DNA of 64,000 nucleotides from Ariolimax columbianus. Lineage: Eukaryota; Mollusca; Gastropoda; Stylommatophora; Arionidae. The notes beneath the pieces were generated by a model. That model was not told where the DNA came from. It was given only the letters and a program-made list of their open reading frames with translations, and ran no database searches. Below, piece by piece: positions 2,590 through 64,000 of the stretch. The position numbers were made by a program, and so were the translations under genes. Positions within the stretch are counted from its first letter, which is position 1; each line of letters starts with the position of its first letter. The stretch spans positions 40,992,246-41,056,245 of the forward strand of contig JAVGWX010000006.1 of the NCBI GenBank assembly GCA_036924085.1. Direction: 5' to 3'.

Positions 2590-3702
2590 AGTTAGCTCCC
2601 ACTTCTACAAATGACCACTAGAAATATGGCTCCCACTTCAACAGATCACCACTAGAAATATGGCTCCCATTTCTGCAAATGATCACTAGAAATATGCCCC
2701 CCCCCCCACCTCTACAAATGACCACTAGAAATATGCCCCCCCCCCCAACGTCTACAAATGACCCCTAGAAATATGCCCCTCCCCACCTCTACAAATGACC
2801 CCTAGAAATATGCCCCTCCCCACCTCTACAAATGACCCCTAGAAATATGCCCACCCCCCCCCCCCCACCTCTACAAATGACCCCTAGAAATATGCCATCC
2901 CCCCCCCCCACCTTTACAAATGACCACTAGAAATATGACTCCCACTTTTGCAAATGACCACTAGAAATATGGCTCCCACTTTAGCAAATGACCACTAGAA
3001 ATATGGCTCCCACTTTTGCAAATGACCACTAGAAATATGGCTCCCACTTTTGCAAATGACCACTAGAAATATAGCTCCCACCTCTACAAATGACGACCAG
3101 AAATATGGCTCCCACCTCTACAATTGACCACTAGAAATATGGCTCCCACCTCTACAATTGACCACTAGAAATATGGCTCCCACCTCTAAAAATGACCCCT
3201 AGAAATATAGCTCCCACCTCTACAGATGATCACTAAAAATATGGCTTCGATCTCTACAGATGACCCCTAGAAATATAGCTCCCACCTCTACAGATGACCC
3301 CTAGAAATATGGCTCCCCCCTCTACAGATGACCCCTAGAAATATGGCTCCCACCTCTACATATGACATCTAGAAATATGGCTCCGATCTCTACAGATGAC
3401 CCCTAGAAATATGGCTCCCACCTCTACAGATGACCCCTAGAAATATGGCTCCCACCTCTACAGATGAACCCTAGAAATATGGCTCCGATCTCTACAGATG
3501 ACCCCTAGAAATATGGCTCCCACCTCTACAGATCACCCCTAGAAATATGGCTCCCACCTCTACAGATGACCCCTAGAAATATGGCTCCACCTCTACAGAT
3601 GACCCCTAGAAATATGGCTCCACCTCTACAGATGACCCCTAGAAATATGGCTCCGATCTCTACAGATGATCCCTAGAAATATGGCTCCGATCTCTACAGA
3701 TG
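2590..3702. repeat. 33-34 bp minisatellite, about 33 copies
   Basis: Tandem copies built on the core CCCCTAGAAATATGGCTCCC plus a CTCTACAGATGA-like spacer. Variants are regionally clustered: C-homopolymer expansions at 2695-2910, ACCACTAG versions at 2920-3180, ACCCCTAG versions from 3190. The right edge abuts an RNase-H LINE fragment. Confidence 0.95.
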
Positions 3703-26712: not shown

Positions 26713-29190
26713 AGATGAGGAGCTGATTAGTAGCATAGCAAAGGCAAGTAAAGGGAAATTATTATTAATGGGAGATTTCAACTATCCAGAAATAAAATGG
26801 GATATGGCAGAAGCACTTGTAGAGTCAAAACCTTTTATTACGTGCATAACTGACAATTTTTTAATTCAACATGTAGAAGCAGCCACCAGAGGCAAAAACA
26901 TACTCGACCTAGTTTTTACGACAGAGGAAAATATGATTGAAAACGTTACCGTTGGGGAACTGTTTGGCTCAAGTGACCATCAAATCATCCGTTGGGATCT
27001 TATTGCAGGGAAAGAAGTAAACATAAACACGCGAACATACGACTACTCTAAGGCAGATGTTAAGAGGATGAAAGAGGCAGCGAACCACATAATCTGGAAA
27101 GATATTATTGTAGGAACAGATGTTGAACAGGAGTGGGAAAGTTTTAAAACAGTTCTAGAAACGCTAAAAGAGGAATGTGTTCCATGTAGGGAGGTAAACC
27201 CCAAGCGTAAAAAGTGGATAACTAGATTTGTAGTGAAATGTAGAAGAGCAAAAAATAAAGCATGGCAAAATATATAGAGGCAGGTAAATCAAAAGAAACA
27301 TATGTAAAATATTTGGACAAGCAGAACATATCTCAGAAAGCGAATAAAACAGCAAAAATAGACTTCGAAAAAAAACTTGCTCAGAGGATCAAGACTGACA
27401 GTAAAAGCTTCTTTTCTTATGTTAGAAATAAACAAAGAACGAAAGACAAAGTAGGCCCTCTCATAGACAGTACAGGAAAAATAATAAGTGAGAATAGGGA
27501 GGCTGCTAATCTGCTCAATCAGTACTTTGGCACAGTCTTCACAAAGGAGGACTGCTCCGAGATCCCAGAGCCTATAGATATTTTTCAAAGAGACATGGAT
27601 ACAGCGGGATTAAGATCAATCTGTATTACAGAGGAAATGGTTTTTAAAAAATTGGAGGGGTTGAAAGTGAATAAATGTCCAGGTCAAGATGGTATTCACC
27701 CAAAATTGCTGTATGAAATTAGAAACCAATTAGCAAAACCATTGGCTATATTATGTTCTCAATCACTTACAAAAGGGATTGTTCCACGGGATTGGAAAGA
27801 TGCAGGAGTGATCCCCTTATTCAAAAAAGGCAAAAAATCAGATACGGCAAATTATAGACCGGTGAGTTTAACGAGCATAGTCTGTAAATTGTTAGAGTCA
27901 ATAATCAAAGAAAACATTGTAATGCATTTAGAAAAATTTAATCTAATTAGAAATAGTCAGCATGGGTTTACTAGAGGGAGATCATGCTTAACAAATCTAT
28001 TAGAATTCATGGAGGAGGTTACTAAAATCATAGATAAAGGGGAGCCAGTGGATGTTATTTATCTAGACTTTGCAAAGGCCTTTGATAGAGTACCTCATCA
28101 AAGATTATTTCGAAAGTTAAAATCACATGGAATAGGTGGCGAAGTTGCCAAATGGATTGAAAATTGGTTAACGGGAAGAAGGCAGAGGGTGGGCATAAAT
28201 AAGGAGTACTCTGAGTGGAGTAAAGTGAAAAGTGGTGTGCCACAGGGCTCGGTTTTGGGACCAATTTTATTCTTGATATATATAAATGATTTGGACATTG
28301 ATATGAGATCCATGATTGCAAAATTTGCTGATGACACAAAACTATGCAGTAGTGTCTCATCTAAAGCGGAAGTGGATATATTGATGTCGGATTTAGATAA
28401 AATTCGAGAATGGTCTGTAAGCTGGCAAATGGAGTTTAATGTAGATAAATGTACAGTCATCCACATGGGTAGATCCAATATGGAACATAATTACAGAATG
28501 GGAGAAAACAATATTAGAAAGATAGATAAGGAAAGCGACCTAGGGGTTATAATAGATCATACAGGAAAGGTGAGTGAGCAAGTTAAGGTAGCAGTGAAAA
28601 AGGCAAATGCAATGTTAGGTATGATAAAAAGAAATATTAAACATAGGAGCAAGGAAGTGATCGTCAAACTGTATAAAGCTTTAGTTAGACCTAGATTGGA
28701 GTACTGTGTACAGGTGTGGAGTCCTTATCAAAGAGGGGACATAAACATGCTAGAAAGAATACAAAAAAGAGCGACAAAGATGATAGTGGGATTCCAGAAT
28801 TACAGTTATGAGGAACGACTCAGAAAAACCGGCCTACAGTGTCTCGAAGAGAGAAGAATTCGTGGTGACTTAATACAGGTTTATAAGATGATCAGAGGAA
28901 TCGATAAATTAGACTATAACAAGTTTTTTAAAATACAGCCACCTACAATAACACGAGGGCATAGCTACAAGCTGATTAAAGAGAGGTCCAGGTTAGATAT
29001 TAGGAAATATTTTTTTAGTCAGAGAGTGGTGTCTGCTTGGAATGCATTGCGAGGCGAGGTAGTGGAGGCAGGGACAGTTAATGCATTTAAGAATAAACTG
29101 GGTGCGCATAGATTTTAGAGCAAGGTGATGTAAATGTAACTGGTTGTATACAGACTCTGCAGGGTCTTCTAAACCAGTATAAAGACGTTA
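26713..29190 (+). mobile_element. CR1-like LINE, best copy, one frameshift
   Basis: Codes from within the endonuclease (LLMGDFNYPEIKW, GSSDHQIIRWD) to the end of the RT protein. Frame 26768-27277 shifts near 27270 into 27262-29118, consistent with one base lost from an A-run. RT motifs: KCPGQDGIHP, ANYRPVSLTS, QHGFTRGRSC, VIYLDFAKAFDRVPH (A), SGVPQGSVLGPILFLIYIND (B), AKFADDTKL (C), LGVIIDH, LEYCVQVWSP. The stop at 29118 is followed by a UTR with GACTCTGCAGGGTCTTC and a TTAAGTTAAG tail. The N-terminal endonuclease is missing (5' truncation). It is the reference for the other copies. Confidence 0.92.
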
Positions 29191-36788: not shown

Positions 36789-37632
36789 TTTTGGCCACAT
36801 TGTTACCTCAGCACTTCTGCGAACGACGTTTTGGCCACATTGTTACCTCAGCACTTCTGCGAACGACCTTTTGGCCACATTGTTACCTCAGCACTTCTGC
36901 GAACGACGTTTTGGCCACATTGTTACCTCAGCACTTCTGCGAACGACCTTTTGGCCACATTGTTACCTCAGCACTTCTGCGAACGACGTTTTGGCCACAT
37001 TGTTACCTCAGCACTTCTGCGAACGACGTTTTGGCCACATTGTTATCTCAGCACTTCTGCGAACGACGTTTTGGCCACATTGTTACCTCAGCACTTCTGC
37101 GAACGACCTTTTGGCCACATTGTTACCTCAGCACTTCTGCGAACGACGTTTTGGCCACATTGTTACCTCAGCACTTCTGCGAACGACCTTTTGGCCACAT
37201 TGTTACCTCAGCACTTCTGCGAACGACCTTTTGGCCACATTGTTACCTCAGCACTTCTGCGAACGACGTTTTGGCCACATTGTTACCTCAGCACTTCTGC
37301 GAACGACGTCTTGGCCACATTGTTACCTCAGCACTTCTGCGAACGACCTTTTGGCCACATTGTTACCTCAGCACTTCTGCGAACGACGTTTTGGCCACAT
37401 TGTTACCTCAGCACTTCTGCGAACGACCTTTTGGCCACATTGTTACCTCAGCACTTCTGCGAACGACCTTTTGGCCACATTGTTACCTCAGCACTTCTGC
37501 GAACGACGTTTTGGCCACATTGTTACCTCAGCACTTCTGCGAACGACGTCTTGGCCACATTGTTACCTCAGCACTTCTGCGAACGACGTTTTGGCCACAT
37601 TGTTACCTCAGCACTTCTGCGAACGACGTTTT
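36789..37632. repeat. 40 bp minisatellite, 21 copies, with 240 bp higher-order period
   Basis: Unit built on TTTTGGCCACATTGTTACCT plus CAGCACTTCTGCGAACGACG or ...GACC. Copies are almost identical; the last bases alternate GTT, CTT and GTC. The six-unit pattern C,G,C,C,G,GTC occurs twice in succession (units ending at 37101-37310 and 37341-37550). With a period of 40, three units repeat every 40 codons, and all three plus-strand frames stay open; these frames are artefacts. Confidence 0.97.
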
Positions 37633-40149: not shown

Positions 40150-40562
40150 ATGACAGCAGTAGACATTAAACCGGAATGGATGAATGCATTGAAAGCTCTA
40201 GAAGATCAGCATAAGCCAAGTGAATTTTCTGGTAGACCAGAATGGAACAATGCTATCAAGGCATTAGAACAAATAAAGTCCACAAATTCACCAGGCAAGA
40301 AAGGAAAAAAGAACAAGAAGGGGAAAGAAGAACAGAAAGATGATAGCAAAAACTCTCCGGAGGAGGCAAAAACTGTTCTTGCCGAGTTAGTATCAACTAA
40401 TCAACCTCATCTTCCAGACATTTCTTGTCCTCCGGCTCCTCCACCTCCACCACAGTTTGACCAAAGTCCACGTCCACCTCAGGCTCCTTATCCAGGATTT
40501 GGCTATCCACCTCCTGGAATGGGATATAACCCCCAAAATATGTACCAGCAGTATGGTTTTCC
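40150..40562 (+). CDS. LENG8: LENG8 homologue, exon with start codon
   Basis: ATG at 40150 follows a 47 nt UTR segment after the acceptor at 40102; donor CC/GTAAGT at 40563, phase 2. It encodes two PEW-type motifs (KPEWMNALKALED, RPEWNNAIKALEQ), a lysine-rich GKKGKKNKKGK stretch, then a Pro/Gly/Tyr-rich region with PPPPPQ. Vertebrate LENG8 likewise begins with a PEW(E/N)KARQAL motif and a Pro/Gln/Tyr-rich disordered half. LENG8 is the animal relative of yeast Thp3, a SAC3/PCI-family protein linked to nuclear mRNA processing. Identification rests on this exon plus exons 4 to 7. Confidence 0.85.
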
Positions 40563-41378: not shown

Positions 41379-41436
41379 GTTTGGTTATGGTGGTTATATT
41401 GGTGGTGGACCATATGGAGTGCCTCCACCACCATGG
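41379..41436 (+). CDS. LENG8: LENG8 homologue, coding exon 2
   Basis: Acceptor TTTTTCAATTGCAG, donor TGG/GTGAGA; 58 nt joins phase 2 to phase 0. Encodes FGYGGYIGGGPYGVPPPPW, continuing the Gly/Pro/Tyr-rich disordered region. Confidence 0.8.
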
Positions 41437-41794: not shown

Positions 41795-42400
41795 CCTATA
41801 TCACGCTACATGTTTTTGGCGAAAGTGTTCGCAACTTCATATTTCGCTATCGCAGTTGACTTTCCAATTTTTTAACTTTTCTGTTTGTTGGTCAATAAAT
41901 ATAATTTTCTTGTGTGTAAAGACACAATTGAATATAGAACTTGTTGGTGTTAATGTATTTGTTGTGTGTTTGTTAGTTTCTGAGATACAAAAAGATCAAG
42001 GTGAAAATTTATTGAAAAATGGACTCAACCGCTAGGCCGAGTCGCTCCGGAAGAAATCCATGGAAACCACAACAACGTATCGATACTGTGTTTATAATAT
42101 CGACACAACTGTTAGTTTCCAATTCAAACTAGTTATTGCATCTAAACAAACAAAATAAACACATCTCGATAAAGATCTTTCCCAACAACCTACTTCACCT
42201 TTCGCAAATAGTCGGCCTGCCCCAATCGGTGTAATAAGAATAAAAATCTTTCAAAATCCATTTGTAATCTAACATACAATACTTTAACTGGCAAAAAAAC
42301 CTGTTTAGATGGATGTGACGTATTCAGCATTTTTTAAAAATGGGTAGAGGCCTCAGTAATTTTTTGTTCTTTTCCGATTTTGTAGGCAGTGTGTGTCAAA
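41795..42400. mobile_element. piggyBac-like MITE, older copy
   Basis: Shares long blocks (TCAATAAATATAATTTTCTT, GGAAACCACAACAACGTATC) with the bounded element at 55052-55720. The left end TTAA (41791-41794) then CCTATATCACGCTACAT parallels CCTTAGGCACGCTACAT there. The right end is eroded and is placed only approximately. Confidence 0.7.
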
Positions 42401-42541: not shown

Positions 42542-42824
42542 ATGAACTCATATGGTCCGGGTCCTGGAAACTATGGTGGTGGTCCCAGAGGACCGCAAGG
42601 CCCAATGGGACCTCATCATGGTCCTTTCGGTAGCCCAGGAATGGGCCCACCAATTGACCATTCAGGTTTCCGGGGGCCATCATCTCAGAGATTCCCATTT
42701 GGTGATGGTCCCCGGGGTCCACCTCCAAATATGGATATGGAGCGTGCACAAGACAGCCCACCAGAGAGTGGAGCATCAGACTTTCCACGTCCGAGTTCTC
42801 ACTTCAACAACAGAAACAATAAAC
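42542..42824 (+). CDS. LENG8: LENG8 homologue, coding exon 3
   Basis: Acceptor TTGTCTTCTCCATAG, donor AAAC/GTAAGT; 283 nt, phase 0 to 1. Encodes a Gly/Pro-rich low-complexity segment (YGPGPGNYGGGPRGPQGP...) ending SSHFNNRNNK. Residue composition fits the disordered N-terminal half of LENG8; no folded domain. Confidence 0.8.
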
Positions 42825-44624: not shown

Positions 44625-46796
44625 AAATGGATACAGGCCCATAAGCCTACTGAGCTGTGTCGGCAAGCTGATGGAACGGATAATAAACACCAGACTGATG
44701 TGGCATCTGGAAGAAAAACGAATACTAATTCCACAGCAAGCCGGCTTTAGACAGCACAGATCCACTGAGGACCAGGTCATCCTCATAGCCCAGGAGATAG
44801 AAGATGCCTACCAGGCACAGAAACACACAGTAGCTGTTTGGGTGGATCTGGAAAAGGCATTTGACAAAGTCTGGAAGGATGGACTTAGAGTCAAGCTAAG
44901 AAGAAGTGATGTCTGTGGGAAGATGTACAAGTGGATCAACCACTACCTCAAACAAAGAACAAGGGCAGATGAGCAAAAAGGTGACACTCGAGCAGGGAGT
45001 ACCCCAAGGAGGAGCATTGTCACCCACACTCTTCCTGGTATATATAAACGATATTACAGAGAATATACCAAGAAGAGTCCATAGCTCAATGTTTGCAGAC
45101 GATCTGGCTATGTGGACCTCTGAAAAGAATCTCACCATAGCAAGAAATCGGATGCAGACGGCCCTAACATCGCTGGAAGAGTGGGCGAACTCATGGCTGG
45201 TCAAAATAAACGAGGAGAAAACCACGTGCACAATATTCTCGCTCTCATTAAAACCCCAAAGTACCAAATTAAGTCTGAATGGCAAAATCCTGCAGCCAAA
45301 CGACAACCCAACCTATCTGGGAGTCACATTTGATCGGCGCATGACATGGAAAAGTCAGATTGAGAGAAACCGAATGAAAGCCAGAGAAAGAATGGCGATC
45401 ATGAGGAAACTTGCTGGCACAAGCTGGGGAGCAGACGAAGGCATACTAAAGAAACTGTACACTGGAAGAGTGAGACCAGTTCTCGAGTATGGCATCGCGG
45501 CATGGACAACCGCAGCGAAGGCGAACTTCGATAAAGTTAACAAACTTCAAAACCAAGCCATGAGAATTATAACAGGTGGCATGAAGTCAACGCCAATTGT
45601 AGAACTCGAAAAGATTACAAAATTGCAATCCATGACCGATAGAAGAGACTGCAGAGCCCAGCTGCAGTCAGAGAAACTCAGAAGACTGACGGACCATCCA
45701 ATGTACCAGAGACTAAACAATTTGGGAAATGGGAAACTAAAGCGGAGAAACTTTGCAGAAATAGCCAAAGCAAAGATGCACGAAGATCCCATAAACGCAC
45801 TAACAACACCAAAACCCATCACTACTGTACGAAAACCTACTTGGAGGCAGGATATATTTCCAGAGGTGGTAGAAAATATACCAGGTATTGCAAACAAAAA
45901 CTGCCAGAGTGAAAAAGAAAGGAGAGACACTACCCTAAGCTTCATAACGAAAAGCTACCCAAGCATGGACTGGACCCATGCATACACCGACGGTTCTGTA
46001 ACAAACACTACACAGAACGGAGGGGCAGGAGCATTCCTGAACCTACCAAATGGCAGAAAAATAACACTGTCATTCGCTACTGGTAAGTACACAAGCAATT
46101 TCAGAGCAGAGGCACTGAGGGCGGCAGTGGAAGAAATGGTAACACACAGTGAAAATGAGAGCCATATAGTCCTGCTGACAGATGCGCTCGAAGTAGTCAC
46201 AGCGCTAAAAAGCCAGAAAAACACTGAGCTTAATGACTTAAGAGCAGCACTCTGCAAACTGTGCCAGCAGTCCGCACCAAAAAGGGTAGTGGTACAGTGG
46301 GTTCCGTCACACTGCAACATCCAAGGCAACGAGGAGGCAGACAGACTGGCAAAAGAAGGTGCAAGGCTACCACAGACAGATACCAGTATGACGTACGAAG
46401 AGTCAAAACGGCTTATCAAAGCCAGATACATGACCAAATGGGAAACCGAACATACTGGTTACACCAAAAACGATGCCTATTACCAGTTGAACCGAAGAGA
46501 GCAGGTCGTTGTCTTCAGACTTCGCACTGGCCACAACAGACTGAGGTACCACCTATTCAACAAATTGAAGATAGGGTGTACCGACGAATGCCCGTGCGGT
46601 ACTGGTAAAATGACCACTGAACATCTGCTGCAGAACTGCCCGACATACGAGGATCAGAGAGAGCAGATGTGGCCATTGCCAGTGGAACTGCAAGACAAGC
46701 TCTATGGTAGTGGCGAGAGTCTCAGGATGACCGCCGCTTTTTTCGAGAAAATAATGGTTACTGTCTGACTGTGTACGCAGAAGAAGAAGAAGAAAT
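44625..46796 (+). mobile_element. RNase-H LINE, best copy, one frameshift
   Basis: Codes from RT motif YRPISLLSCVGKLM to a stop at 46768. RT: AVWVDLEKAFDKVW (A), GVPQGGALSPTLFLVYIND (B), SSMFADDLAMW (C, FADD). Frame 44671-45084 shifts near 44970 into 44906-46768. RNase H: HAYTDGSV (Asp), FRAEALR (Glu), LLTDALE (Asp), NEEADRLAK (Asp), so all four acidic residues are present. The tail is CPCGTGKMTTEHLLQNCP. It ends ACTGTGTACGCAGAAGAAG. Endonuclease and ORF1 are missing. RNase H after RT is typical of I, Loa and related clades; which one is not settled. It lies in LENG8 intron 3, sense orientation. Confidence 0.93.
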
Positions 46797-47201: not shown

Positions 47202-47415
47202 AATCTCCTGGAGCAGGTGGCATCAGATTCCAGCTGCCAAAGCGCAGAAATCTAAACAGTAGCAGTAATGTTGTTGACAATCCTCTGAGATCATCTCCTA
47301 AATTTATGCGTCCATGTGCTCCACTCCACTCGATGCAGAATTTATCTGACAGCATGGCAGAAACTAAAAATAGTTCAGTTAATGACAGTAGAAAAGACTC
47401 GCATTCTGGAAATGG
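47202..47415 (+). CDS. LENG8: LENG8 homologue, coding exon 4
   Basis: Acceptor CTATTTGTCAG, donor GG/GTAAG; 214 nt, phase 1 to 2. It opens SPGAGGIRFQLPKRR, which matches the conserved short GGLKF-x-I-x-KR box of vertebrate LENG8, then a Ser/Asn-rich linker (NSSVNDSRKDSHSGN). This is the first clearly diagnostic segment. Confidence 0.88.
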
Positions 47416-52238: not shown

Positions 52239-52529
52239 TGAGGAAATTAACCTTGGAAGTGGTGATGCACAAAACAGTTCTCCAGCAGCATTCGGTTGTG
52301 GGGGGCGTAATATGAGATTTCAGCAGCGAGGCCGAGGAGCCAATCTTGGCATTAGACCACTGGGAACCCCGCAAAGACCTTTATACTCTAGGGACAGAGT
52401 TCCAACTTACAGAAGGTCAAGGAGCAGATCCTTTTCAAGTTCTTCTCGCTCCTGGTCTAGATCCAGATCTAGGTCCAGGTCACGTTCCAGTTCACCAGAT
52501 AAGCGGAGAAGAAGATTTCATCGTGCCAG
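52239..52529 (+). CDS. LENG8: LENG8 homologue, coding exon 7 (RS-rich)
   Basis: Acceptor TATTCTTTTTTACAG, donor GCCAG/GTGACT; 291 nt, phase 2 to 2. Encodes an Arg/Gly-rich part (FQQRGRGANLGIRPLG) followed by an arginine-serine block (SRSRSRSRSSSPDKRRRRFH). Vertebrate LENG8 has a similar SRSRSSSRSPTRHFRR block before its SAC3/GANP-PCI domain. That domain is not in this window, so the gene continues past 64000. Confidence 0.88.
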
Positions 52530-52689
52530 GTGACTTATTTTGATTACTTAATCCTTGGTTCATTAAATCTATAGCATGATTATTCCAACATTGATATATG
52601 ACTGAGACTGGGAACATTCTTATAACATTTTGATTTGCTGAAAACATAATGGGGTTGTTGTTGCTCAATGCCCACAATGTGTAAGTTTA

Positions 52690-52960
52690 CTTTTTCATGC
52701 GCCATGAAAAGGACGTTAAGTGGAGGGTTGTAGCAGCTTTCCGCACATCCCGAGCAAGCTGATGAAGATATGCCGCAGTCGTTCAGGCGGTTGTGCTATA
52801 CTTAGCTTCATCTGTGTTGTGTTTACTACTACAGTGATCACATCGATCCACATCTCGTCAGCCAGGCTGCCTTGAATACAAGCTGTTTCCAGGGAACGCT
52901 ACATAGAAGAGAGATTGTGGTCTTGGTCAGTGTGTTTTTCCAGACTGGACTTGACCCAAC
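52690..52960 (+). mobile_element. Interspersed repeat family F
   Basis: GAAAAGGACGTTAAGTGGAG, GTCAGCCAGGCTGCC and GTTTCCAGGGA words collinear with 22230-22570 (complement). At the start of LENG8 intron 7. Confidence 0.55.
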
Positions 52961-53532
52961 ATAATGGGGTTTAAAAGCTCTTAAGTGTCTAATTAAATCC
53001 ATGACTAAAATATTGTACCAAACTTCATTCAAAGATATTATAGGTACTTCATTGTTATGGAAATGCAGTTATACCAGGCCGTATAGATGAACACGAAAAG
53101 GTTTGCTCTGGGGGTCCTGCAGTAATATGCATCCACTGATCATTGAGATGAATTGAGTAGAGCCCTTGTTCAAATGTGGTATCACTGGACAAATAAGACG
53201 AGCTAGTTCAGCAGCTTTTGTCTACCTGCAGTGAGATACAAGTTCGTCTGCCAGTATTCTAGTACTTATTAATCCACCTGGTTTCGCTTATAAACAGTGT
53301 GGCAAGGGATGATCTACACCTGTTGATTTTTTTATACCTGTCTTCTCGAAAAATATCTGCATTGACCTTAACTACAGCTGCACAACACTGCCATGTACTC
53401 TTTGACCTATACATCTCCATTTAGTCTCCTGAGTCTACATTTCTATATGTTATCTTCATTGCCACAGAACAGCATTTCTGAACAATCATCTTATTTGAAA
53501 TTAACACATCTGAAATTGTTAACATTAACAAA
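52961..53532. other. LENG8 intron 7, unique part before the snoRNA array
   Basis: No coding exon, repeat or structured RNA recognised. Homology to the 1,724 bp unit begins only near 53533. Confidence 0.45.
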
Positions 53533-53698
53533 AGCATCCTTGTGTACTGCTGGCCTTAAATTATGTCATTCCACAGAAGGGATGGATGCTACAGTAACAA
53601 TGTGATTCCTTAAATAAATGTCTAGTTTTTTATTGTTGAGATTCTAGCCTACTACTTTCTTTTCTGGAGATTCTAGCCAATAGGAAGCCATAGCATTA
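53533..53698 (+). ncRNA. H/ACA snoRNA-like, degenerate type-1 founder copy
   Basis: Keeps AGCATCC/GGATGCT and the H box ACAGTA (53591-53596), but has lost two bases from the hairpin I upper stem, carries a roughly 31 nt duplication in hairpin II (GATTCTAGCC twice), and has GCA instead of ACA at 53693. Probably not processed. Confidence 0.6.
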
Positions 53699-54045
53699 TA
53701 TCCTCCTGTGATTATCTCTTATTTTGTACTATTTGTCCTTCGGTGTCTTCTGAACATAAAATTAATAAGAGCTATAGAAAATGTTTGGTATGGTAGAGAA
53801 AATAGCCTGTAAATCAGTCTACAAATGATCACTATATCAATCAACATTGTGAATTTTCTAGACTGAAGTATTATCACACATTGAAACAAGTTCTTTTACT
53901 CCTAAATACATGGGCATTATACATAAATTAATTCAAAGGGCAGATTATCAATTATTATAATGTTCCTAGTCCAGTTCACATTTCAGATAGGTGGAGGCAC
54001 TAATGTGATCGCTGTAGGCAGCCTTTTATTAAATTACTTTGACAG

Positions 54046-54180
54046 AGCATCCTTGTGTACTGCTGGCCTTAAAATATAGGTCATTCCAGAGAAGGGACGG
54101 ATGCTACAGTAATACTGTGGTTCCTTAAATAAATTCTTGGTCTCTTCTGTGATGCTAGCTTATAGGAAGCCATAACATTT
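54046..54180 (+). ncRNA. H/ACA snoRNA candidate, type 2, founder unit
   Basis: 135 nt with all elements of the type-2 form (see 56442): AGCATCC/GGATGCT stem, ACAGTA H box, hairpin II closed by TGTGG/CCATA, ACA at 54175-54177. It lies in the older, diverged unit, yet its core is virtually identical to the homogenised copies. Confidence 0.72.
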
Positions 54181-54647
54181 CCTCTATTTTTTTATTCTTC
54201 GTGTCCATTTGTGTCTTATTGACAAAAAAATGAATAAGAACTATAGAAAATGGTTGGTATGGTAGTGACAGACTACAACTGTTGATGATAGATAGCCAAA
54301 AAACAAGGTCTTCAAGTAATGGCTATATCAACATTCTGATTTCACCACACATTGAAACACTTAAAACATATTCTTGTATTCCTAAATACATGGGTATTAG
54401 ACCACAATTAACTCAGTGAAGACCACTATACTCTGGACAGAATATCAAAGGGTAGATTATAAAGCTTTATGGTGTTTGTTATCGAGGTAGCATTTCAGAC
54501 AGTTGTATGCAAAGATTTTATTGCTGCACACGACTTAACATGTCCTCAATTATTATCAATGAGTTTCCATTTAAAGATGAGCTTTCCACTTTGATCAAAT
54601 ATCATAATGTTCAGTAATGCTTGCCTTCTATTATATTACTTTGTCAG

Positions 54648-54783
54648 AGCATCCTTGTGTACTGCAGGCCTTAAATTATAGGTCATTCCAGAGAAGGGAT
54701 GGATGCTAGAGTAATTCTGTGGCCTCCCTAAATACATAGTTGTTCTCAAATGTGAGGCTGACTTTTAGGGAGCCATAACATTT
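54648..54783 (+). ncRNA. H/ACA snoRNA candidate, type 3, founder unit
   Basis: 136 nt; H box AGAGTA, hairpin II with CTCCCT/AGGGAG stem, ACA at 54778-54780. Same form as 57045-57180. Confidence 0.72.
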
Positions 54784-54825
54784 GCCCATCTTGTTCTGTC
54801 CTTCTGTTTTGTTTTCTGCCTCCAG

Positions 54826-54892
54826 ACTGTTTTATTGTTTGTTGCTTGAAGACCATAAGTGAAAATAATTGTATTTTGAAATGGTTGTCAGA
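54826..54892 (+). other. Candidate noncoding exon after a type-3 snoRNA
   Basis: Acceptor TTTTGTTTTCTGCCTCCAG ends at 54825, donor GTCAGA/GTAAGT starts at 54893. Contains stops in the frame that would continue from LENG8. First of five equivalent copies. Confidence 0.4.
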
Positions 54893-55051
54893 GTAAGTTT
54901 TAAAAAATACAGACATTGACTAAATAGCATGTATAACAGTAGTGATGGTCATCTCAAGAAACCTTAATTCTCCAGGCCAAGGAGTCATAGTGCTTGGAAC
55001 AGATCCATTGCATTCCATTACATGAGTATTAGACCTCTAGGAAGCCATTAA

Positions 55052-55720
55052 CCTTAGGCACGCTACATAATTTTTGAAAAAAATTTGACCTAATTAATTT
55101 TCTTAATTAGTCGCTGTGGTAGTCGTCTTTCAAAATTTGTAACTTTTATGTTTGTTTGTCAATAAATATGATTTTCTGGCGTGTAGATACACAATAGCAT
55201 AACGAACATGTGGGTGTTATTGTTTTTGTTGTATGTTTGTTAGTTTTTGAGATTTAAAAAGATGAAGTTGAAAATGTATGAAAATCTCGGGAAAAATTTG
55301 GACTCGACCACTAGGCCTAGTCGCTTCGATAGAAAACCATGGAAACCACAACAACGTATCGATACTGTGTTTACAATATCGCCACAACTGTTAGTTTCAA
55401 TTCAAACGTAGTTCTTTCATTTAAACGAACAAAATAAACAGATCTACGCGATAAAAATCTTTTTCAACAACCTACTTCCCCTTTCGCAAAAAGTCGGCTT
55501 GCTCCAAACGGCGTATACAAAATTAAAACTGTTTAAAAACCATTTGTAATCGCACATACGATACTTTAACCGGCAAAATATCGTGTATATATGGAGGACG
55601 TACTCAGCAGTAAAAAATGGCTGTCAGAAGTGACTCCGTTCAAAAAAAAAAAATTTTTTACGCACACCGTTTTTGCAGGCCGAGCTGGTTAGAAGGGATC
55701 GGACAAGGGCGTGCTTAAGG
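55052..55720. mobile_element. piggyBac-like MITE, complete, TTAA TSD
   Basis: Bounded by TTAA at 55048-55051 and 55721-55724. Terminal inverted repeats CCTTAGGCACG (55052-55062) and CCTTAAGCACG on the other strand (55720-55710), 10 of 11 matching. 669 bp, no coding frame. Removing it and one TTAA restores exactly the GCCATTAAAGAACAC junction found in every later unit. TTAA targeting and CC-starting ends are piggyBac traits. Confidence 0.92.
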
Positions 55721-55838
55721 TTAAAGAACACTATACTCTAGCAACAGAATTCAATGTTACTGGAGGTCTAGGAGTGAATCATTTGTCAAGTTTCTCTCCC
55801 CCATTTCATTGTAGACTTTTATTCTATTACATCAACAG

Positions 55839-55973
55839 AGCATCCTTGTGTACTGCTGGCCTTAAATTGTAGGTCATTCCAGAGAAGGGATGGATGCTAC
55901 AGTAATTCTGTGGTTCCTTAAATAAATGTCTAGTTTCTGTTGTGATTCTAGCCTATAGGAAGCCATAACATTG
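55839..55973 (+). ncRNA. H/ACA snoRNA candidate, type 1, unit 1
   Basis: 135 nt. Hairpin I: lower stem AGCATCC (55839-55845) with GGATGCT (55892-55898); upper stem CTG/CAG plus TGGCCT (55857-55862)/AGGTCA (55871-55876); pocket strands TTGTGTA and AGAAGGGAT, leaving 16 nt from upper stem to the H box ACAGTA (55899-55904, ANANNA). Hairpin II: TGTGGTTCCT (55909-55918) with AGGAAGCCATA (55957-55967) around one bulged G; upper CTAG/CTAG; 16 nt to ACA (55968-55970), then three bases. H/ACA RNAs guide pseudouridylation by dyskerin RNPs; the target is unknown. Intronic, sense to LENG8, as usual for animal snoRNAs. Confidence 0.75.
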
Positions 55974-56441
55974 TTTCCTTCTGTGGTTTACTCTTATTTG
56001 GTACTTTCTGTCATTTGTTGTCTTCTGAATGTAAAATGAATAAGAGCTATAGAAAATGGTTGGTATGGTAGAGACAAACAGAACAACTTCAGACAATAGC
56101 CCGTAAATCAGTCTACAAATGATCACTATATCAATCAAACATTCTGAATTTTCCATACTGAAGTATCATCACACATTGAGACACTGTTAAAACACGTTCT
56201 TTTACTCCTAGATACATGTGCATTAGACAGAAATGAATTCAAAGGGCAGAGTATTATCAAGTATTATAATGTTCGTAGTCCAGTTCACATTTCAGATGGG
56301 TGGAGGCACTGATGTGATCGTTGTAGGCAGCTTAACTTGTACTCAATAATTTAAAATAAACCTTTGATTCAAGATGAGCTTACCCTTTTCATTAGATATT
56401 GATTGTAAAGTAATGCTTGCTTTTTATTAAATCACTTTGAC

Positions 56442-56576
56442 AGCATCCTTGTGTACTGCTGGCCTTAAAATATAGGTCATTCCAGAGAAGGGACGGATGC
56501 TACAGTAATACTGTGGTTCCTTAAATAAATTCTTGGTCTCTTCTGTGATGCTAGCTTATAGGAAGCCATAACATTT
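56442..56576 (+). ncRNA. H/ACA snoRNA candidate, type 2, unit 1
   Basis: 135 nt. As type 1, but with a changed hairpin I loop (TTAAAATAT) and GGGAC in the right pocket strand; H box ACAGTA at 56502-56507. Hairpin II keeps the TGTGGTTCCT/AGGAAGCCATA stem, with a different upper stem (TTGG/CTAG, allowing wobble). ACA at 56571-56573. Pocket and box positions are unchanged from type 1. Confidence 0.75.
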
Positions 56577-57044
56577 CCTCTATTTTTTAATTCTTCGTGT
56601 CCATTTGTGTCTAATTGACAAAAAAATGAATAAGAACTATAGAAAATGGTTGGTATGGTAGTGACAGACTACAACTGTTGACGATAGATAGCCTATAAAA
56701 CAAGGTCTTCAAATAACGGCTATATCAACATTCTGATTTCACCACACATTGAAACACTTAAAACATTTTCTTGTATTCCTAAATACATGGGTATTAGACC
56801 ACAATTAACTCAGTGAAGACCACTATACTCTGGACAGAATATCAAAGGGTAGATTATAAAGCTTTATGGTGTTTGTTATCGAGGTAGCATTTCAGACAGT
56901 TGTATGCAAAGATTTTATTGCTGCAGACGACTTAACATGTCCTCAATTATTATCAATGAGTTTCCATTTAAAGATGAGCTTTCCACTTTGATCAAATATC
57001 ATAATGTTCAGTAATGCTTGCCTTCTATTATATTACTTTGTCAG

Positions 57045-57180
57045 AGCATCCTTGTGTACTGCAGGCCTTAAATTATAGGTCATTCCAGAGAAGGGATGGA
57101 TGCTAGAGTAATTCTGTGGCCTCCCTAAATACATAGTTGTTCTCAAATGTGAGGCTGACTTTTAGGGAGCCATAACATTT
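57045..57180 (+). ncRNA. H/ACA snoRNA candidate, type 3, unit 1
   Basis: 136 nt. Hairpin I stem and pocket as in type 1. The H box is AGAGTA (57105-57110), still ANANNA. Hairpin II: TGTGG/CCATA and CTCCCT (57121-57126)/AGGGAG (57164-57169), where a U-A pair of types 1-2 has become C-G; a long upper stem AGTTGTTCTCA/TGAGGCTGACT leaves 14 nt to ACA (57175-57177). A TGAG at 57150-57153 resembles a CAB box, but here it is predicted to be paired, so a Cajal-body role is only a possibility. Confidence 0.75.
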
Positions 57181-57222
57181 GCCCATCTTGTTCTGTTCTT
57201 CTGTTTTGTTTTCTGCCTCCAG

Positions 57223-57288
57223 ACTGTTTTATTGTTTGTTGCCGAAGACCATAAGTGAAAATAATTGTATTTTGAAATGGTTGTCAGA
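57223..57288 (+). other. Candidate noncoding exon, unit 1
   Basis: 66 nt between TTTTCTGCCTCCAG and GTCAGA/GTAAGTAT, 41 nt after the type-3 snoRNA. A stop (TGA) occurs in one LENG8-continuing frame. Could be a cassette, poison or host-transcript exon. Confidence 0.42.
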
Positions 57289-57562
57289 GTAAGTATTTAA
57301 AAAATACAGACATTGGCTAAATAGCATGTATAACAGTAGTGATGGTCATCTCAAGAAACCTTAATTCTGCAGGCCAAGGAGTCATAGTGCTTGGAACAGA
57401 TCCATTGCATTCCATTACATGAGTATTAGACCTCTAGGAAGCCATTAAAGAACACTATACTCTAGCAACAGAATTCAATGTTACTGGAGGTCTAGGAGTG
57501 AATCATTTGTCAAGTTTCTCTCCCCTATTTCATTGTAGACTGTTATTCTATTACATCAACAG

Positions 57563-57697
57563 AGCATCCTTGTGTACTGCTGGCCTTAAATTGTAGGTCA
57601 TTCCAGAGAAGGGATGGATGCTACAGTAATTCTGTGGTTCCTTAAATAAATGTCTAGTTTCTGTTGTGATTCTAGCCTATAGGAAGCCATAACATTG
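57563..57697 (+). ncRNA. H/ACA snoRNA candidate, type 1, unit 2
   Basis: Core identical to 55839-55973, exactly 1,724 bp later. Confidence 0.75.
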
Positions 57698-58165
57698 TTT
57701 CCTTCTGTGGTTTACTCTTATTTGGTACTTTCTGTCATTTGTTGTCTTCTGAATATAAAATGAATAAGAGCTATAGAAAATGGTTGGTATGGTAGAGACA
57801 AACAGAACAACTTCAGACAATAGCCCGTAAATCAGTCTACAAATGATCACTATATCAATCAAACATTCTGAATTTTCCATACTGAAGTATCATCACACAT
57901 TGAGACACTGTTAAAACACGTTCTTTTACTCCTAGATACATGTGCATTAGACAGAAATGAATTCAAAGGGCAGAGTATTATCAAGTATTATAATGTTCGT
58001 AGTCCAGTTCACATTTCAGATGGGTGGAGGCACTGATGTGATCGTTGTAGGCAGCTTAACTTGTACTCAATAATTTAAAATAAACCTTTGATTCAAGATG
58101 AGCTTACCCTTTTCATTAGATATTGATTGTAAAGTAATGCTTGCTTTTTATTAAATCACTTTGAC

Positions 58166-58300
58166 AGCATCCTTGTGTACTGCTGGCCTTAAAATATAGG
58201 TCATTCCAGAGAAGGGACGGATGCTACAGTAATACTGTGGTTCCTTAAATAAATTCTTGGTCTCTTCTGTGATGCTAGCTTATAGGAAGCCATAACATTT
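58166..58300 (+). ncRNA. H/ACA snoRNA candidate, type 2, unit 2
   Basis: Core identical to 56442-56576. Confidence 0.75.
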
Positions 58301-58768
58301 CCTCTATTTTTTAATTCTTCGTGTCCATTTGTGTCTAATTGACAAAAAAATGAATAAGAACTATAGAAAATGGTTGGTATGGTAGTGACAGACTACAACT
58401 GTTGACGATAGATAGCCTATAAAACAAGGTCTTCAAATAACGGCTATATCAACATTCTGATTTCACCACACATTGAAACACTTAAAACATTTTCTTGTAT
58501 TCCTAAATACATGGGTATTAGACCACAATTAACTCAGTGAAGACCACTATACTCTGGACAGAATATCAAAGGGTAGATTATAAAGCTTTATGGTGTTTGT
58601 TATCGAGGTAGCATTTCAGACAGTTGTATGCAAAGATTTTATTGCTGCAGACGACTTAACATGTCCTCAATTATTATCAATGAGTTTCCATTTAAAGATG
58701 AGCTTTCCACTTTGATCAAATATCATAATGTTCAGTAATGCTTGCCTTCTATTATATTACTTTGTCAG

Positions 58769-58904
58769 AGCATCCTTGTGTACTGCAGGCCTTAAATTAT
58801 AGGTCATTCCAGAGAAGGGATGGATGCTAGAGTAATTCTGTGGCCTCCCTAAATACATAGTTGTTCTCAAATGTGAGGCTGACTTTTAGGGAGCCATAAC
58901 ATTT
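58769..58904 (+). ncRNA. H/ACA snoRNA candidate, type 3, unit 2
   Basis: Core identical to 57045-57180, including the AGAGTA H box. Confidence 0.75.
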
Positions 58905-58946
58905 GCCCATCTTGTTCTGTCCTTCTGTTTTGTTTTCTGCCTCCAG

Positions 58947-59012
58947 ACTGTTTTATTGTTTGTTGCCGAAGACCATAAGTGAAAATAATTGTATTTTGAA
59001 ATGGTTGTCAGA
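58947..59012 (+). other. Candidate noncoding exon, unit 2
   Basis: Same acceptor and donor as 57223-57288. Confidence 0.42.
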
Positions 59013-59286
59013 GTAAGTATTTAAAAAATACAGACATTGGCTAAATAGCATGTATAACAGTAGTGATGGTCATCTCAAGAAACCTTAATTCTGCAGGCCA
59101 AGGAGTCATAGTGCTTGGAACAGATCCATTGCATTCCATTACATGAGTATTAGACCTCTAGGAAGCCATTAAAGAACACTATACTCTAGCAACAGAATTC
59201 AATGTTACTGGAGGTCTAGGAGTGAATCATTTGTCAAGTTTCTCTCCCCTATTTCATTGTAGACTGTTATTCTATTACATCAACAG

Positions 59287-59421
59287 AGCATCCTTGTGTA
59301 CTGCTGGCCTTAAATTGTAGGTCATTCCAGAGAAGGGATGGATGCTACAGTAATTCTGTGGTTCCTTAAATAAATGTCTAGTTTCTGTTGTGATTCTAGC
59401 CTATAGGAAGCCATAACATTG
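59287..59421 (+). ncRNA. H/ACA snoRNA candidate, type 1, unit 3
   Basis: Core identical to 55839-55973. Confidence 0.75.
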
Positions 59422-59889
59422 TTTCCTTCTGTGGTTTACTCTTATTTGGTACTTTCTGTCATTTGTTGTCTTCTGAATATAAAATGAATAAGAGCTATAG
59501 AAAATGGTTGGTATGGTAGAGACAAACAGAACAACTTCAGACAATAGCCCGTAAATCAGTCTACAAATGATCACTATATCAATCAAACATTCTGAATTTT
59601 CCATACTGAAGTATCATCACACATTGAGACACTGTTAAAACACGTTCTTTTACTCCTAGATACATGTGCATTAGACAGAAATGAATTCAAAGGGCAGAGT
59701 ATTATCAAGTATTATAATGTTCGTAGTCCAGTTCACATTTCAGATGGGTGGAGGCACTGATGTGATCGTTGTAGGCAGCTTAACTTGTACTCAATTATTT
59801 AAAATAAACCTTTGATTCAAGATGAGCTTACCCTTTTCATTAGATATTGATTGTAAAGTAATGCTTGCTTTTTATTAAATCACTTTGAC

Positions 59890-60024
59890 AGCATCCTTGT
59901 GTACTGCTGGCCTTAAAATATAGGTCATTCCAGAGAAGGGACGGATGCTACAGTAATACTGTGGTTCCTTAAATAAATTCTTGGTCTCTTCTGTGATGCT
60001 AGCTTATAGGAAGCCATAACATTT
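59890..60024 (+). ncRNA. H/ACA snoRNA candidate, type 2, unit 3
   Basis: Core identical to 56442-56576; the flanking T-run after the ACA is changed (TTTTTTTATT). Confidence 0.75.
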
Positions 60025-60492
60025 CCTCTATTTTTTTATTCTTCGTGTCCATTTGTGTCTAATTGACAAAAAAATGAATAAGAACTATAGAAAATGGTTG
60101 GTATGGTAGTGACAGACTACAACTGTTGACGATAGATAGCCTATAAAACAAGGTCTTCAAATAATGGCTATATCAACATTCTGATTTCACCACACATTGA
60201 AACACTTAAAACATTTTCTTGTATTCCTAAATACATGGGTATTAGACCACAATTAACTCAGTGAAGACCACTATACTCTGGACAGAATATCAAAGGGTAT
60301 ATTATAAAGCTTTATGGTGTTTGTTATCGAGGTAGCATTTCAGACAGTTGTATGCAAAGATTTTATTGCTGCAGACGACTTAACATGTCCTCAATTATTA
60401 TCAATGAGTTTCCATTTAAAGATGAGCTTTCCACTTTGATCAAATATCATAATGTTCAGTAATGCTTGCCTTCTATTATATTACTTTGTCAG

Positions 60493-60628
60493 AGCATCCT
60501 TGTGTACTGCAGGCCTTAAATTATAGGTCATTCCAGAGAAGGGATGGATGCTAGAGTAATTCTGTGGCCTCCCTAAATACATAGTTGTTCTCAAATGTGA
60601 GGCTGACTTTTAGGGAGCCATAACATTT
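60493..60628 (+). ncRNA. H/ACA snoRNA candidate, type 3, unit 3
   Basis: Core identical to 57045-57180. Confidence 0.75.
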
Positions 60629-60670
60629 GCCCATCTTGTTCTGTCCTTCTGTTTTGTTTTCTGCCTCCAG

Positions 60671-60736
60671 ACTGTTTTATTGTTTGTTGCCGAAGACCAT
60701 AAGTGAAAATAATTGTATTTTGAAATGGTTGTCAGA
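60671..60736 (+). other. Candidate noncoding exon, unit 3
   Basis: Same acceptor and donor as 57223-57288. Confidence 0.42.
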
Positions 60737-61010
60737 GTAAGTATTTAAAAAATACAGACATTGGCTAAATAGCATGTATAACAGTAGTGATGGTCATCTC
60801 AAGAAACCTTAATTCTGCAGGCCAAGGAGTCATAGTGCTTGGAACAGATCCATTGCATTCCATTACATGAGTATTAGACCTCTAGGAAGCCATTAAAGAA
60901 CACTATACTCTAGCAACAGAATTCAATGTTACTGGAGGTCTAGGAGTGAATCATTTGTCAAGTTTCTCTCCCCTATTTCATTGTAGACTGTTATTCTATT
61001 ACATCAACAG

Positions 61011-61145
61011 AGCATCCTTGTGTACTGCTGGCCTTAAATTGTAGGTCATTCCAGAGAAGGGATGGATGCTACAGTAATTCTGTGGTTCCTTAAATAAATG
61101 TCTAGTTTCTGTTGTGATTCTAGCCTATAGGAAGCCATAACATTG
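61011..61145 (+). ncRNA. H/ACA snoRNA candidate, type 1, unit 4
   Basis: Core identical to 55839-55973. Confidence 0.75.
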
Positions 61146-61613
61146 TTTCCTTCTGTGGTTTACTCTTATTTGGTACTTTCTGTCATTTGTTGTCTTCTGA
61201 ATATAAAATGAATAAGAGCTATAGAAAATGGTTGGTATGGTAGAGACAAACAGAACAACTTCAGACAATAGCCCGTAAATCAGTCTACAAATGATCACTA
61301 TATCAATCAAACATTCTGAATTTTCCATACTGAAGTATCATCACACATTGAGACACTGTTAAAACACGTTCTTTTACTCCTAGATACATGTGCATTAGAC
61401 AGAAATGAATTCAAAGGGCAGAGTATTATCAAGTATTATAATGTTCGTAGTCCAGTTCACATTTCAGATGGGTGGAGGCACTGATGTGATCGTTGTAGGC
61501 AGCTTAACTTGTACTCAATTATTTAAAATAAACCTTTGATTCAAGATGAGCTTACCCTTTTCATTAGATATTGATTGTAAAGTAATGCTTGCTTTTTATT
61601 AAATCACTTTGAC

Positions 61614-61748
61614 AGCATCCTTGTGTACTGCTGGCCTTAAAATATAGGTCATTCCAGAGAAGGGACGGATGCTACAGTAATACTGTGGTTCCTTAAATAA
61701 ATTCTTGGTCTCTTCTGTGATGCTAGCTTATAGGAAGCCATAACATTT
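61614..61748 (+). ncRNA. H/ACA snoRNA candidate, type 2, unit 4
   Basis: Core identical to 56442-56576. Confidence 0.75.
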
Positions 61749-62216
61749 CCTCTATTTTTTTATTCTTCGTGTCCATTTGTGTCTAATTGACAAAAAAATG
61801 AATAAGAACTATAGAAAATGGTTGGTATGGTAGTGACAGACTACAACTGTTGACGATAGATAGCCTATAAAACAAGGTCTTCAAATAATGGCTATATCAA
61901 CATTCTGATTTCACCACACATTGAAACACTTAAAACATTTTCTTGTATTCCTAAATACATGGGTATTAGACCACAATTAACTCAGTGAAGACCACTATAC
62001 TCTGGACAGAATATCAAAGGGTATATTATAAAGCTTTATGGTGTTTGTTATCGAGGTAGCATTTCAGACAGTTGTATGCAAAGATTTTATTGCTGCAGAC
62101 GACTTAACATGTCCTCAATTATTATCAATGAGTTTCCATTTAAAGATGAGCTTTCCACTTTGATCAAATATCATAATGTTCAGTAATGCTTGCCTTCTAT
62201 TATATTACTTTGTCAG

Positions 62217-62352
62217 AGCATCCTTGTGTACTGCAGGCCTTAAATTATAGGTCATTCCAGAGAAGGGATGGATGCTAGAGTAATTCTGTGGCCTCCCTAA
62301 ATACATAGTTGTTCTCAAATGTGAGGCTGACTTTTAGGGAGCCATAACATTT
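62217..62352 (+). ncRNA. H/ACA snoRNA candidate, type 3, unit 4
   Basis: Core identical to 57045-57180. Confidence 0.75.
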
Positions 62353-62394
62353 GCCCATCTTGTTCTGTCCTTCTGTTTTGTTTTCTGCCTCCAG

Positions 62395-62460
62395 ACTGTT
62401 TTATTGTTTGTTGCCGAAGACCATAAGTGAAAATAATTGTATTTTGAAATGGTTGTCAGA
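62395..62460 (+). other. Candidate noncoding exon, unit 4
   Basis: Same acceptor and donor as 57223-57288. Confidence 0.42.
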
Positions 62461-62734
62461 GTAAGTATTTAAAAAATACAGACATTGGCTAAATAGCATG
62501 TATAACAGTAGTGATGGTCATCTCAAGAAACCTTAATTCTGCAGGCCAAGGAGTCATAGTGCTTGGAACAGATCCATTGCATTCCATTACATGAGTATTA
62601 GACCTCTAGGAAGCCATTAAAGAACACTATACTCTAGCAACAGAATTCAATGTTACTGGAGGTCTAGGAGTGAATCATTTGTCAAGTTTCTCTCCCCTAT
62701 TTCATTGTAGACTGTTATTCTATTACATCAACAG

Positions 62735-62869
62735 AGCATCCTTGTGTACTGCTGGCCTTAAATTGTAGGTCATTCCAGAGAAGGGATGGATGCTACAGTA
62801 ATTCTGTGGTTCCTTAAATAAATGTCTAGTTTCTGTTGTGATTCTAGCCTATAGGAAGCCATAACATTG
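62735..62869 (+). ncRNA. H/ACA snoRNA candidate, type 1, unit 5
   Basis: Core identical to 55839-55973. Confidence 0.75.
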
Positions 62870-63337
62870 TTTCCTTCTGTGGTTTACTCTTATTTGGTAC
62901 TTTCTGTCATTTGTTGTCTTCTGAATATAAAATGAATAAGAGCTATAGAAAATGGTTGGTATGGTAGAGACAAACAGAACAACTTCAGACAATAGCCCGT
63001 AAATCAGTCTACAAATGATCACTATATCAATCAAACATTCTGAATTTTCCATACTGAAGTATCATCACACATTGAGACACTGTTAAAACACGTTCTTTTA
63101 CTCCTAGATACATGTGCATTAGACAGAAATGAATTCAAAGGGCAGAGTATTATCAAGTATTATAATGTTCGTAGTCCAGTTCACATTTCAGATGGGTGGA
63201 GGCACTGATGTGATCGTTGTAGGCAGCTTAACTTGTACTCAATTATTTAAAATAAACCTTTGATTCAAGATGAGCTTACCCTTTTCATTAGATATTGATT
63301 GTAAAGTAATGCTTGCTTTTTATTAAATCACTTTGAC

Positions 63338-63472
63338 AGCATCCTTGTGTACTGCTGGCCTTAAAATATAGGTCATTCCAGAGAAGGGACGGATGCTACA
63401 GTAATACTGTGGTTCCTTAAATAAATTCTTGGTCTCTTCTGTGATGCTAGCTTATAGGAAGCCATAACATTT
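63338..63472 (+). ncRNA. H/ACA snoRNA candidate, type 2, unit 5
   Basis: Core identical to 56442-56576. Confidence 0.75.
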
Positions 63473-63940
63473 CCTCTATTTTTTTATTCTTCGTGTCCAT
63501 TTGTGTCTAATTGACAAAAAAATGAATAAGAACTATAGAAAATGGTTGGTATGGTAGTGACAGACTACAACTGTTGACGATAGATAGCCTATAAAACAAG
63601 GTCTTCAAATAATGGCTATATCAACATTCTGATTTCACCACACATTGAAACACTTAAAACATTTTCTTGTATTCCTAAATACATGGGTATTAGACCACAA
63701 TTAACTCAGTGAAGACCACTATACTCTGGACAGAATATCAAAGGGTATATTATAAAGCTTTATGGTGTTTGTTATCGAGGTAGCATTTCAGACAGTTGTA
63801 TGCAAAGATTTTATTGCTGCAGACGACTTAACATGTCCTCAATTATTATCAATGAGTTTCCATTTAAAGATGAGCTTTCCACTTTGATCAAATATCATAA
63901 TGTTCAGTAATGCTTGCCTTCTATTATATTACTTTGTCAG

Positions 63941-64000
63941 AGCATCCTTGTGTACTGCAGGCCTTAAATTATAGGTCATTCCAGAGAAGGGATGGATGCT
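63941..64000 (+). ncRNA. H/ACA snoRNA candidate, type 3, unit 5, cut by the window
   Basis: Only hairpin I is present; the window ends exactly after GGATGCT. The H box and hairpin II lie outside. Confidence 0.7.

Follow-up and report, generated by a model that had tools for sequence, protein, structure and literature searches.

A 64,000-nt stretch of the genome of the gastropod Ariolimax columbianus (contig JAVGWX010000006.1 of assembly GCA_036924085.1, positions 40,992,246 to 41,056,245; hereafter, the window) ends inside a tandem array of short, near-identical blocks that is probably a real array of box H/ACA small nucleolar RNA (snoRNA) genes, lying in sense within an intron of a protein-coding gene. 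We propose that this intronic array guides pseudouridylation of the 18S ribosomal RNA (rRNA) residue equivalent to human U1692, a reading to which we assign a probability of roughly 0.8 and which builds on the anatomy of the copies, their order, the pattern of their conservation and their complementarity to the target. The box H/ACA assignment is supported by the two boxes, the two hairpins, the distance between pocket and box, the conservation of the core, and the fit of an invariant pocket to 18S rRNA.

Order, anatomy and conservation of the copies

Searching the whole window with an 18-nt anchor, in which 3 substitutions were allowed, we located 18 core starts between positions 53533 and 63941, all of them on the + strand; the − strand gave no match. 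A covariance model built on the three sequence types found in the array (A, B and C) returned the same 18 places, and none besides, up to E = 10; the 3’ hairpin of this model lies one column off, and it served only for locating copies. The 11-nt sequence TTGTGTACTGC likewise occurs 18 times, as compared with 0.03 occurrences expected from shuffling. An earlier inspection of the letters of this DNA, the sequence-only reading, had counted 18 sense copies of 135-136 nt (16 intact, one degenerate and one cut), and the anchor search and the covariance model both bear this out. The cores measure 134 nt (A and B) or 135 nt (C) up to the second base after the ACA, and 135 or 136 nt up to the third. 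As the window stops at 64000, inside the array, the count is a lower bound, with at least 16 intact copies. The copies are listed below; each was located by the anchor search and the covariance model unless another basis is given.

53533..53698, + strand: copy X1, A-like, broken
54046..54180, + strand: copy B1
54648..54783, + strand: copy C1 (also single-core Rfam scan)
55839..55973, + strand: copy A2 (also single-core Rfam scan)
56442..56576, + strand: copy B2 (also single-core Rfam scan)
57045..57180, + strand: copy C2
57563..57697, + strand: copy A3, the reference layout (anchor search and fold)
58166..58300, + strand: copy B3
58769..58904, + strand: copy C3
59287..59421, + strand: copy A4
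59890..60024, + strand: copy B4
60493..60628, + strand: copy C4
61011..61145, + strand: copy A5
61614..61748, + strand: copy B5
62217..62352, + strand: copy C5
62735..62869, + strand: copy A6
63338..63472, + strand: copy B6
63941..64000, + strand: copy C6, cut at the window end
55839..62734, + strand: four full A-B-C higher-order repeats, 1724 bp each (pairwise comparison)

Types A, B and C recur in this order at spacings of 603, 603 and 518 bp, which add up to a 1,724-bp unit. Four full units follow one another from 55839 onward, and each of the 6 pairwise comparisons among them gives 1718-1724 identical positions of 1724 (at least 99.6%). Copy X1, at the left edge of the array, carries an insert within its 3’ hairpin, reads GCA where ACA is expected, and is probably a pseudogene; copy C6 is cut off by the window end after 60 bases and shows the 5’ hairpin only. 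In the C1 monomer we also observed a 669-bp insertion (55052-55720), bounded by the inverted ends CCTTAGGCACGC and CCTTAAGCACGC with TTAA on each side and absent from the other four complete C monomers. It looks like a non-autonomous element of the piggyBac type; a partial match to it lies in the host gene (41844-42329, 82% identity over 503 bp).

The 5’ half of a type A core consists of a stem (AGCAUCC), a pocket (UUGUGUA) and an upper stem in which CUG-C-UGGCCU is partnered by AGGUCA-UUC-CAG, and continues through the right side of the pocket, AGAAGGGAU, to the closing stem strand GGAUGCU and the box H, ACAGUA. The second hairpin is closed by UGUGGUUCCU pairing with AGGAAGCCAUA and is followed by ACA. 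These elements occupy the following positions in copy A3:

57563-57569 and 57616-57622, + strand: 5’ stem (fold)
57570-57576, + strand: left side of the guide (fold)
57609-57613, + strand: right side of the guide, AAGGG (fold)
57623-57628, + strand: box H, ACAGTA (sequence)
57692-57694, + strand: ACA (sequence)

Box H (ANANNA between the hairpins) reads ACAGTA in types A and B and in X1, and AGAGTA in type C, in all 17 copies that reach that far. ACA is present in 16 of these 17, X1 being the exception, and both boxes stand at matching places in all 16 intact copies; the guide bases UUGUGUA and AAGGG are unchanged in 18/18 copies. The succession of hairpin, ANANNA, hairpin and ACA noticed at first inspection was confirmed, and the distance from the 5’ pocket to box H, 14 nt, lies within the 14-16 nt characteristic of H/ACA guides. 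Across the three types, 96.9% of the base-pair cells of this structure hold standard pairs, versus at most 43.8% when the partners are slid. Type A reached the hairpin-hinge-hairpin-tail fold unconstrained, type C formed both domains with the 5’ one branched, and type B adopted the fold only when the boxes were kept open.

The whole units having been copied recently, identity within a type proves nothing about selection. Between the types, which are old duplicates, the 5’ hairpin differs at only 3/60 (A-B), 2/60 (A-C) and 3/60 (B-C) positions and the 3’ hairpin at 9/62, 19/62 and 14/62, as compared with 132/428, 181/367 and 160/348 (31-49%) in the aligned flanks, where 40, 101 and 120 gapped positions, respectively, were dropped before counting and where the C flanks are perhaps only partly homologous. 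The contrast with the flank is strong for the 5’ hairpin (Fisher; p = 4e-6, 2e-13 and 5e-11) and also holds for the 3’ hairpin (p = 0.007, 0.009 and 0.0007). Core sequences kept this much better than their flanks indicate that selection on the core predates the recent amplification. The original claim that cores stay alike while flanks diverge holds when types A, B and C are compared with one another. It fails for comparisons of one 1,724-bp unit with the next, where flank and core are equally identical.

These data bear on an explanation that we take seriously and nonetheless consider unlikely, namely that the array is a satellite-like tandem repeat in which a single H/ACA snoRNA was functional at one time, the majority of the copies now being silent passengers kept alike by recent duplication and homogenisation. 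Such a history would account for the near-identity of whole units, flanks included, which is uninformative on selection, and for the edge copy at 53533 that is already broken. However, it sits poorly with the superior conservation of cores over flanks between A, B and C, which argues that each type was constrained before the last amplification, and with guide bases that have not changed in any copy.

One further block of the flank was found to be alike between types: 195-245 nt past the copy start (57758-57808 in A3), 44/50 positions are identical between A3 and B3, far above the remaining flank, and the block recurs at the equivalent position downstream of further copies of these two types.

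Fit of the 5’ pocket to 18S rRNA

The pocket was taken from the fold first and 18S rRNA was scanned afterwards, using a human 18S sequence (1869 nt) with its numbering and a list of human pseudouridines; the target scans further covered the 18S end of contig L001, one 3’ piece of 28S (L006), and U1, U2, U4, U5 and U6. The best 18S site of the 5’ pocket is CCCUU-U-G-UACACA (6+5 pairs; score 26.0, with the runner-up site at 14.0), whose target uridine, which we take to be U1692 on the human sequence, falls 14 nt from box H. This stretch is also present in the independent eukaryotic 18S end of L001. Shuffled guides reached the score of the pocket on any 18S uridine in 201 of 20,000 cases (55/5,000 in a separate run), and at a listed pseudouridine in 11 of 20,000. 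The pseudouridine at human 18S 1692 is the position reported for SNORA70 (PMC9610020), and 1692 is named among recurrently modified positions (PMC10227372). The complementarity and geometry proper to a guide of this residue, in human numbering, were found, and the cores are predicted to guide the U1692-equivalent pseudouridine, a target assignment that is new here.

Contig L001 (3790-4543), from IMG/VR, is RNA-phage-like by eye, runs into a eukaryotic 18S 3’ end, and is probably a chimeric assembly. Contigs L003-L008, assigned to bacterial metagenome-assembled genomes, carry an exact eukaryotic 28S motif, and four of them (L003, L004, L005 and L007) also match human 18S; their eukaryotic rRNA is probably contamination.

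For the 3’ pocket, the best 18S sites differ by type: U1177 for A (14.5), U556 (19.5) and U866 (16.5) for B, and U1347 for C (12.5), of which U1177, U866 and U1347 are on the pseudouridine list. When the two top-scoring sites of each type were compared, none was common to the types in 18S, L006, the L001 18S end or the small nuclear RNAs, and the 3’ pocket was dropped as a second guide for this reason. A match of the type A 3’ pocket at position 1835 of L006 (24.5), taken to be spacer rather than 28S, was not counted, as neither B nor C has it as one of its two best sites. The 3’ pocket is probably structural rather than guiding, though the three listed sites would fit weak, type-specific guiding.

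Scans of single cores against Rfam placed an H/ACA family first for each type, end to end and below the cut-off: SNORA66 for a type A copy (E = 0.35) and for a type B copy (E = 1.7), and SNORA58 (E = 0.025) followed by SNORA66 (E = 0.11) for a type C copy. SNORA70 was absent from the Rfam results at cut-off, from a scan of 53400-56700 that listed matches down to E = 10, and from the single-core scans. The core would accordingly be classed, from its letters, as an H/ACA guide by anatomy with a SNORA70-like action, and not as a SNORA70 member by sequence as scanned.

Several observations weigh against the snoRNA reading and its target. No Rfam family matched the cores at cut-off over the window, no H/ACA family appeared in the scan of 53400-56700 even with the limit set at E = 10, and the single-core scans also returned unrelated chance families. 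Fold z scores are modest, both for the whole core (-1.65, -2.83 and -3.27 for A, B and C) and for the 3’ hairpin (-1.96, -0.48 and -4.08). The free optimum of type B is not an H/ACA fold (-39.4 kcal/mol, versus -33.3 kcal/mol with the boxes open), and the 5’ domain of type C favours a branched fold lacking the pocket (-19.0 versus -16.1). Covariation rests on one double-changed pair, equalled in 326/500 shuffles, three types being too few for this test. At the target, AG, the 2 bases between the upper stem and AAGGG, remains unpaired, and the adjacent register, U1691, would reach 27.0 with the upper stem opened. When a two-part window was slid along the 1,724-bp unit, 20 of 1644 windows scored at least 26; the three cores supplied only 9 of these, the U1691 register included, and one window outside the cores scored 32.0, at U770. 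Since windows elsewhere in the unit reach an equal or higher score, the 18S fit is not unique when taken by itself; its location in a folded pocket and a target that is a known modified site add to its weight.

The moderate fold z scores and the blank Rfam result at cut-off would be expected of a chance tandem repeat that happens to form hairpins and encodes no snoRNA. We nevertheless find such a coincidence barely credible, because boxes, spacing, selective conservation and the fit to a known pseudouridine site would have to arise jointly.

Host gene, proposed mechanism and release from the intron

Five exons lie upstream of the array, on the same strand (a slash marks the splice junction):

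40150..40562, + strand: exon with the start codon and a LENG8-like N terminus (similar to metagenome protein P0001)
41379..41436, + strand: 58-nt exon that restores phase (located via P0001; acceptor TTGCAG/GTTTGG)
42542..42824, + strand: exon (sequence and P0001 match)
47202..47415, + strand: exon, GAGGIRFQLPKR (sequence)
52239..52529, + strand: arginine/serine (RS)-rich exon directly upstream of the array intron (sequence)
52530..64000, + strand: host intron from its 5’ splice site (donor CAG/GTGACT), with its 3’ end outside the window

Joined together, the exons give a stop-free frame (the second exon was taken 3 bases too long in this reading, adding one extra residue and leaving the frame unaffected). 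The host protein, without this second exon, is 69% identical over 33% of its length to P0001, the sole match among 7980 candidates scored, which supports a real gene. A PEW motif matched part of human LENG8 with E = 0.023, and the PEW motif, a GGIRF-type motif and the RS stretch follow one another in what we take to be the order in LENG8. There was no PDB match to the host protein up to E = 1 and no Pfam match in the frames of 4 of the 5 exons; the SAC3 domain of LENG8/THP3 would fall beyond the window. A resemblance of the host gene to LENG8 is plausible, not proven. Of the initial placement of the array within a LENG8 intron, the intron agrees with the five exons and the donor upstream, and the motif evidence for the LENG8 label is weak. 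That the array occupies a single intron is read from the part within the window, the 3’ end of the intron lying beyond it.

According to our proposal, the host pre-mRNA would be transcribed with the array included, and each copy would fold into hairpin-H-hairpin-ACA and bind dyskerin, NHP2, NOP10 and GAR1. The 5’ pocket, with UUGUGUA on its left and AAGGG on its right, would hold 18S CCCUU-U-G-UACACA, and dyskerin would turn the held uridine (human U1692) into pseudouridine, the 3’ hairpin being mainly the structural half. Copy number would have been raised by unequal exchange, first of monomers of 500-600 bp, from whose divergence types A, B and C arose, and later, in a recent amplification, of the trimer of 1,724 bp, with a higher dose of one guide as the result. 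Expression, protein binding, modification, the dose effect and the mode of duplication are the steps that we infer in this scheme.

To be released from one intron, several snoRNAs need intervening cuts or micro-exons, or else yield a long RNA with snoRNA ends. Folding of five flanks gave no consistent signal of RNase III-like hairpins between copies (z = -0.32, -2.03, -1.65, 0.17 and 0.07). The copies might instead be independent genes with their own promoters, or the array might be split by micro-exons, so that the host intron would not be the unit of release. Similarity in the 40 nt upstream of the cores (19, 22 and 31 of 40 positions identical in the three type comparisons) would suit promoters belonging to the single copies, and 5/5 complete C monomers hold a 3’ splice-site-like sequence that is the best in 52500-64000 (12.7), followed after 66-67 nt by a GTAAGT donor (6.5). 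On the same scale, based on consensus frequencies, three host acceptors scored 4.2-11.1 and four host donors 4.6-9.3. This scoring is, however, unspecific, as it also fires inside the C cores (acceptor-like, 9.7; donor-like, 7.8), and the acceptor/donor pair occurs in C monomers only, so that we judge this alternative to release from the host intron improbable. The candidate micro-exon of 66-67 nt lies at 57223-57288 and at equivalent places in the other complete C monomers.

A variant that we regard as a long shot is that the intron is trimmed at its outer ends only, giving a many-unit H/ACA snoRNA-ended long noncoding RNA (sno-lncRNA) that would carry at least 16 particles and concentrate dyskerin, with single units partly released. 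Introns with two snoRNAs yield sno-lncRNAs, including the H/ACA RNA SLERT (PMC11028025).

Elsewhere, the window holds long open frames resembling those of long interspersed nuclear elements at 27259-29118 (reverse transcriptase) and 44900-46768 (reverse transcriptase and RNase H). Minisatellites occur at 36789-37632, 18970-20291 and 2596-3702, with units of about 40, 30 and 34 bp, respectively, and the first of these is open in all three + frames.

Comparison with known snoRNA families and arrays

If the proposal is correct, the array would be a natural test of how many snoRNAs one animal intron releases, and of whether a higher guide dose alters the occupancy of one pseudouridine in the decoding region. 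Many near-identical snoRNA copies per locus are also found in the SNORD115/SNORD116 and 14q32 arrays. Those arrays consist of box C/D snoRNAs, each repeated intron of the non-coding host carrying a single copy, whereas the array described here is of the H/ACA type and, as far as the window shows, occupies one intron. Clusters of H/ACA isoforms in Drosophila, reportedly described by Huang et al. in 2005, are said to hold several isoforms of one guide per host gene, in few copies each; we know of no A-B-C higher-order repeat among them.

Drosophila 18S U1820, presumably about as far from the 3’ end of its 18S rRNA as U1692 is in human, is probably the same residue. It is modified by snoH1, encoded in an intron of mfl/Nop60B (PMC1821038), which resembles the array cores in being an intronic H/ACA guide. 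In contrast to them, snoH1 is a single copy, and its cluster, in the same source, has one noncoding RNA per intron. Tandem duplication within one gene has been described for vertebrate snoRNA paralogs (PMC2653536), and animal snoRNAs mostly occur one per intron, some sharing an intron (PMC11028025, PMC1821038); the copies described there lie in separate introns or as two snoRNAs per intron, and not as an array of this size.

The predicted target site of the array cores is the same as that of SNORA70 (U70), the guide of human 18S 1692, whose family, with 39 members, is also the largest of the human H/ACA families (PMC8178906). The spread of human H/ACA copies is attributed there mainly to retrotransposition, whereas the array copies are tandem in one intron. 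Among the literature matches listed, where some queries would miss the spelling "H/ACA", none showed an H/ACA array as large as this within a single intron; one of them, PMC7425575, mentions LENG8 and snoRNA once each. With at least 16 intact copies in tandem, the intronic H/ACA array is unusual, but the kind of RNA it would encode is known.

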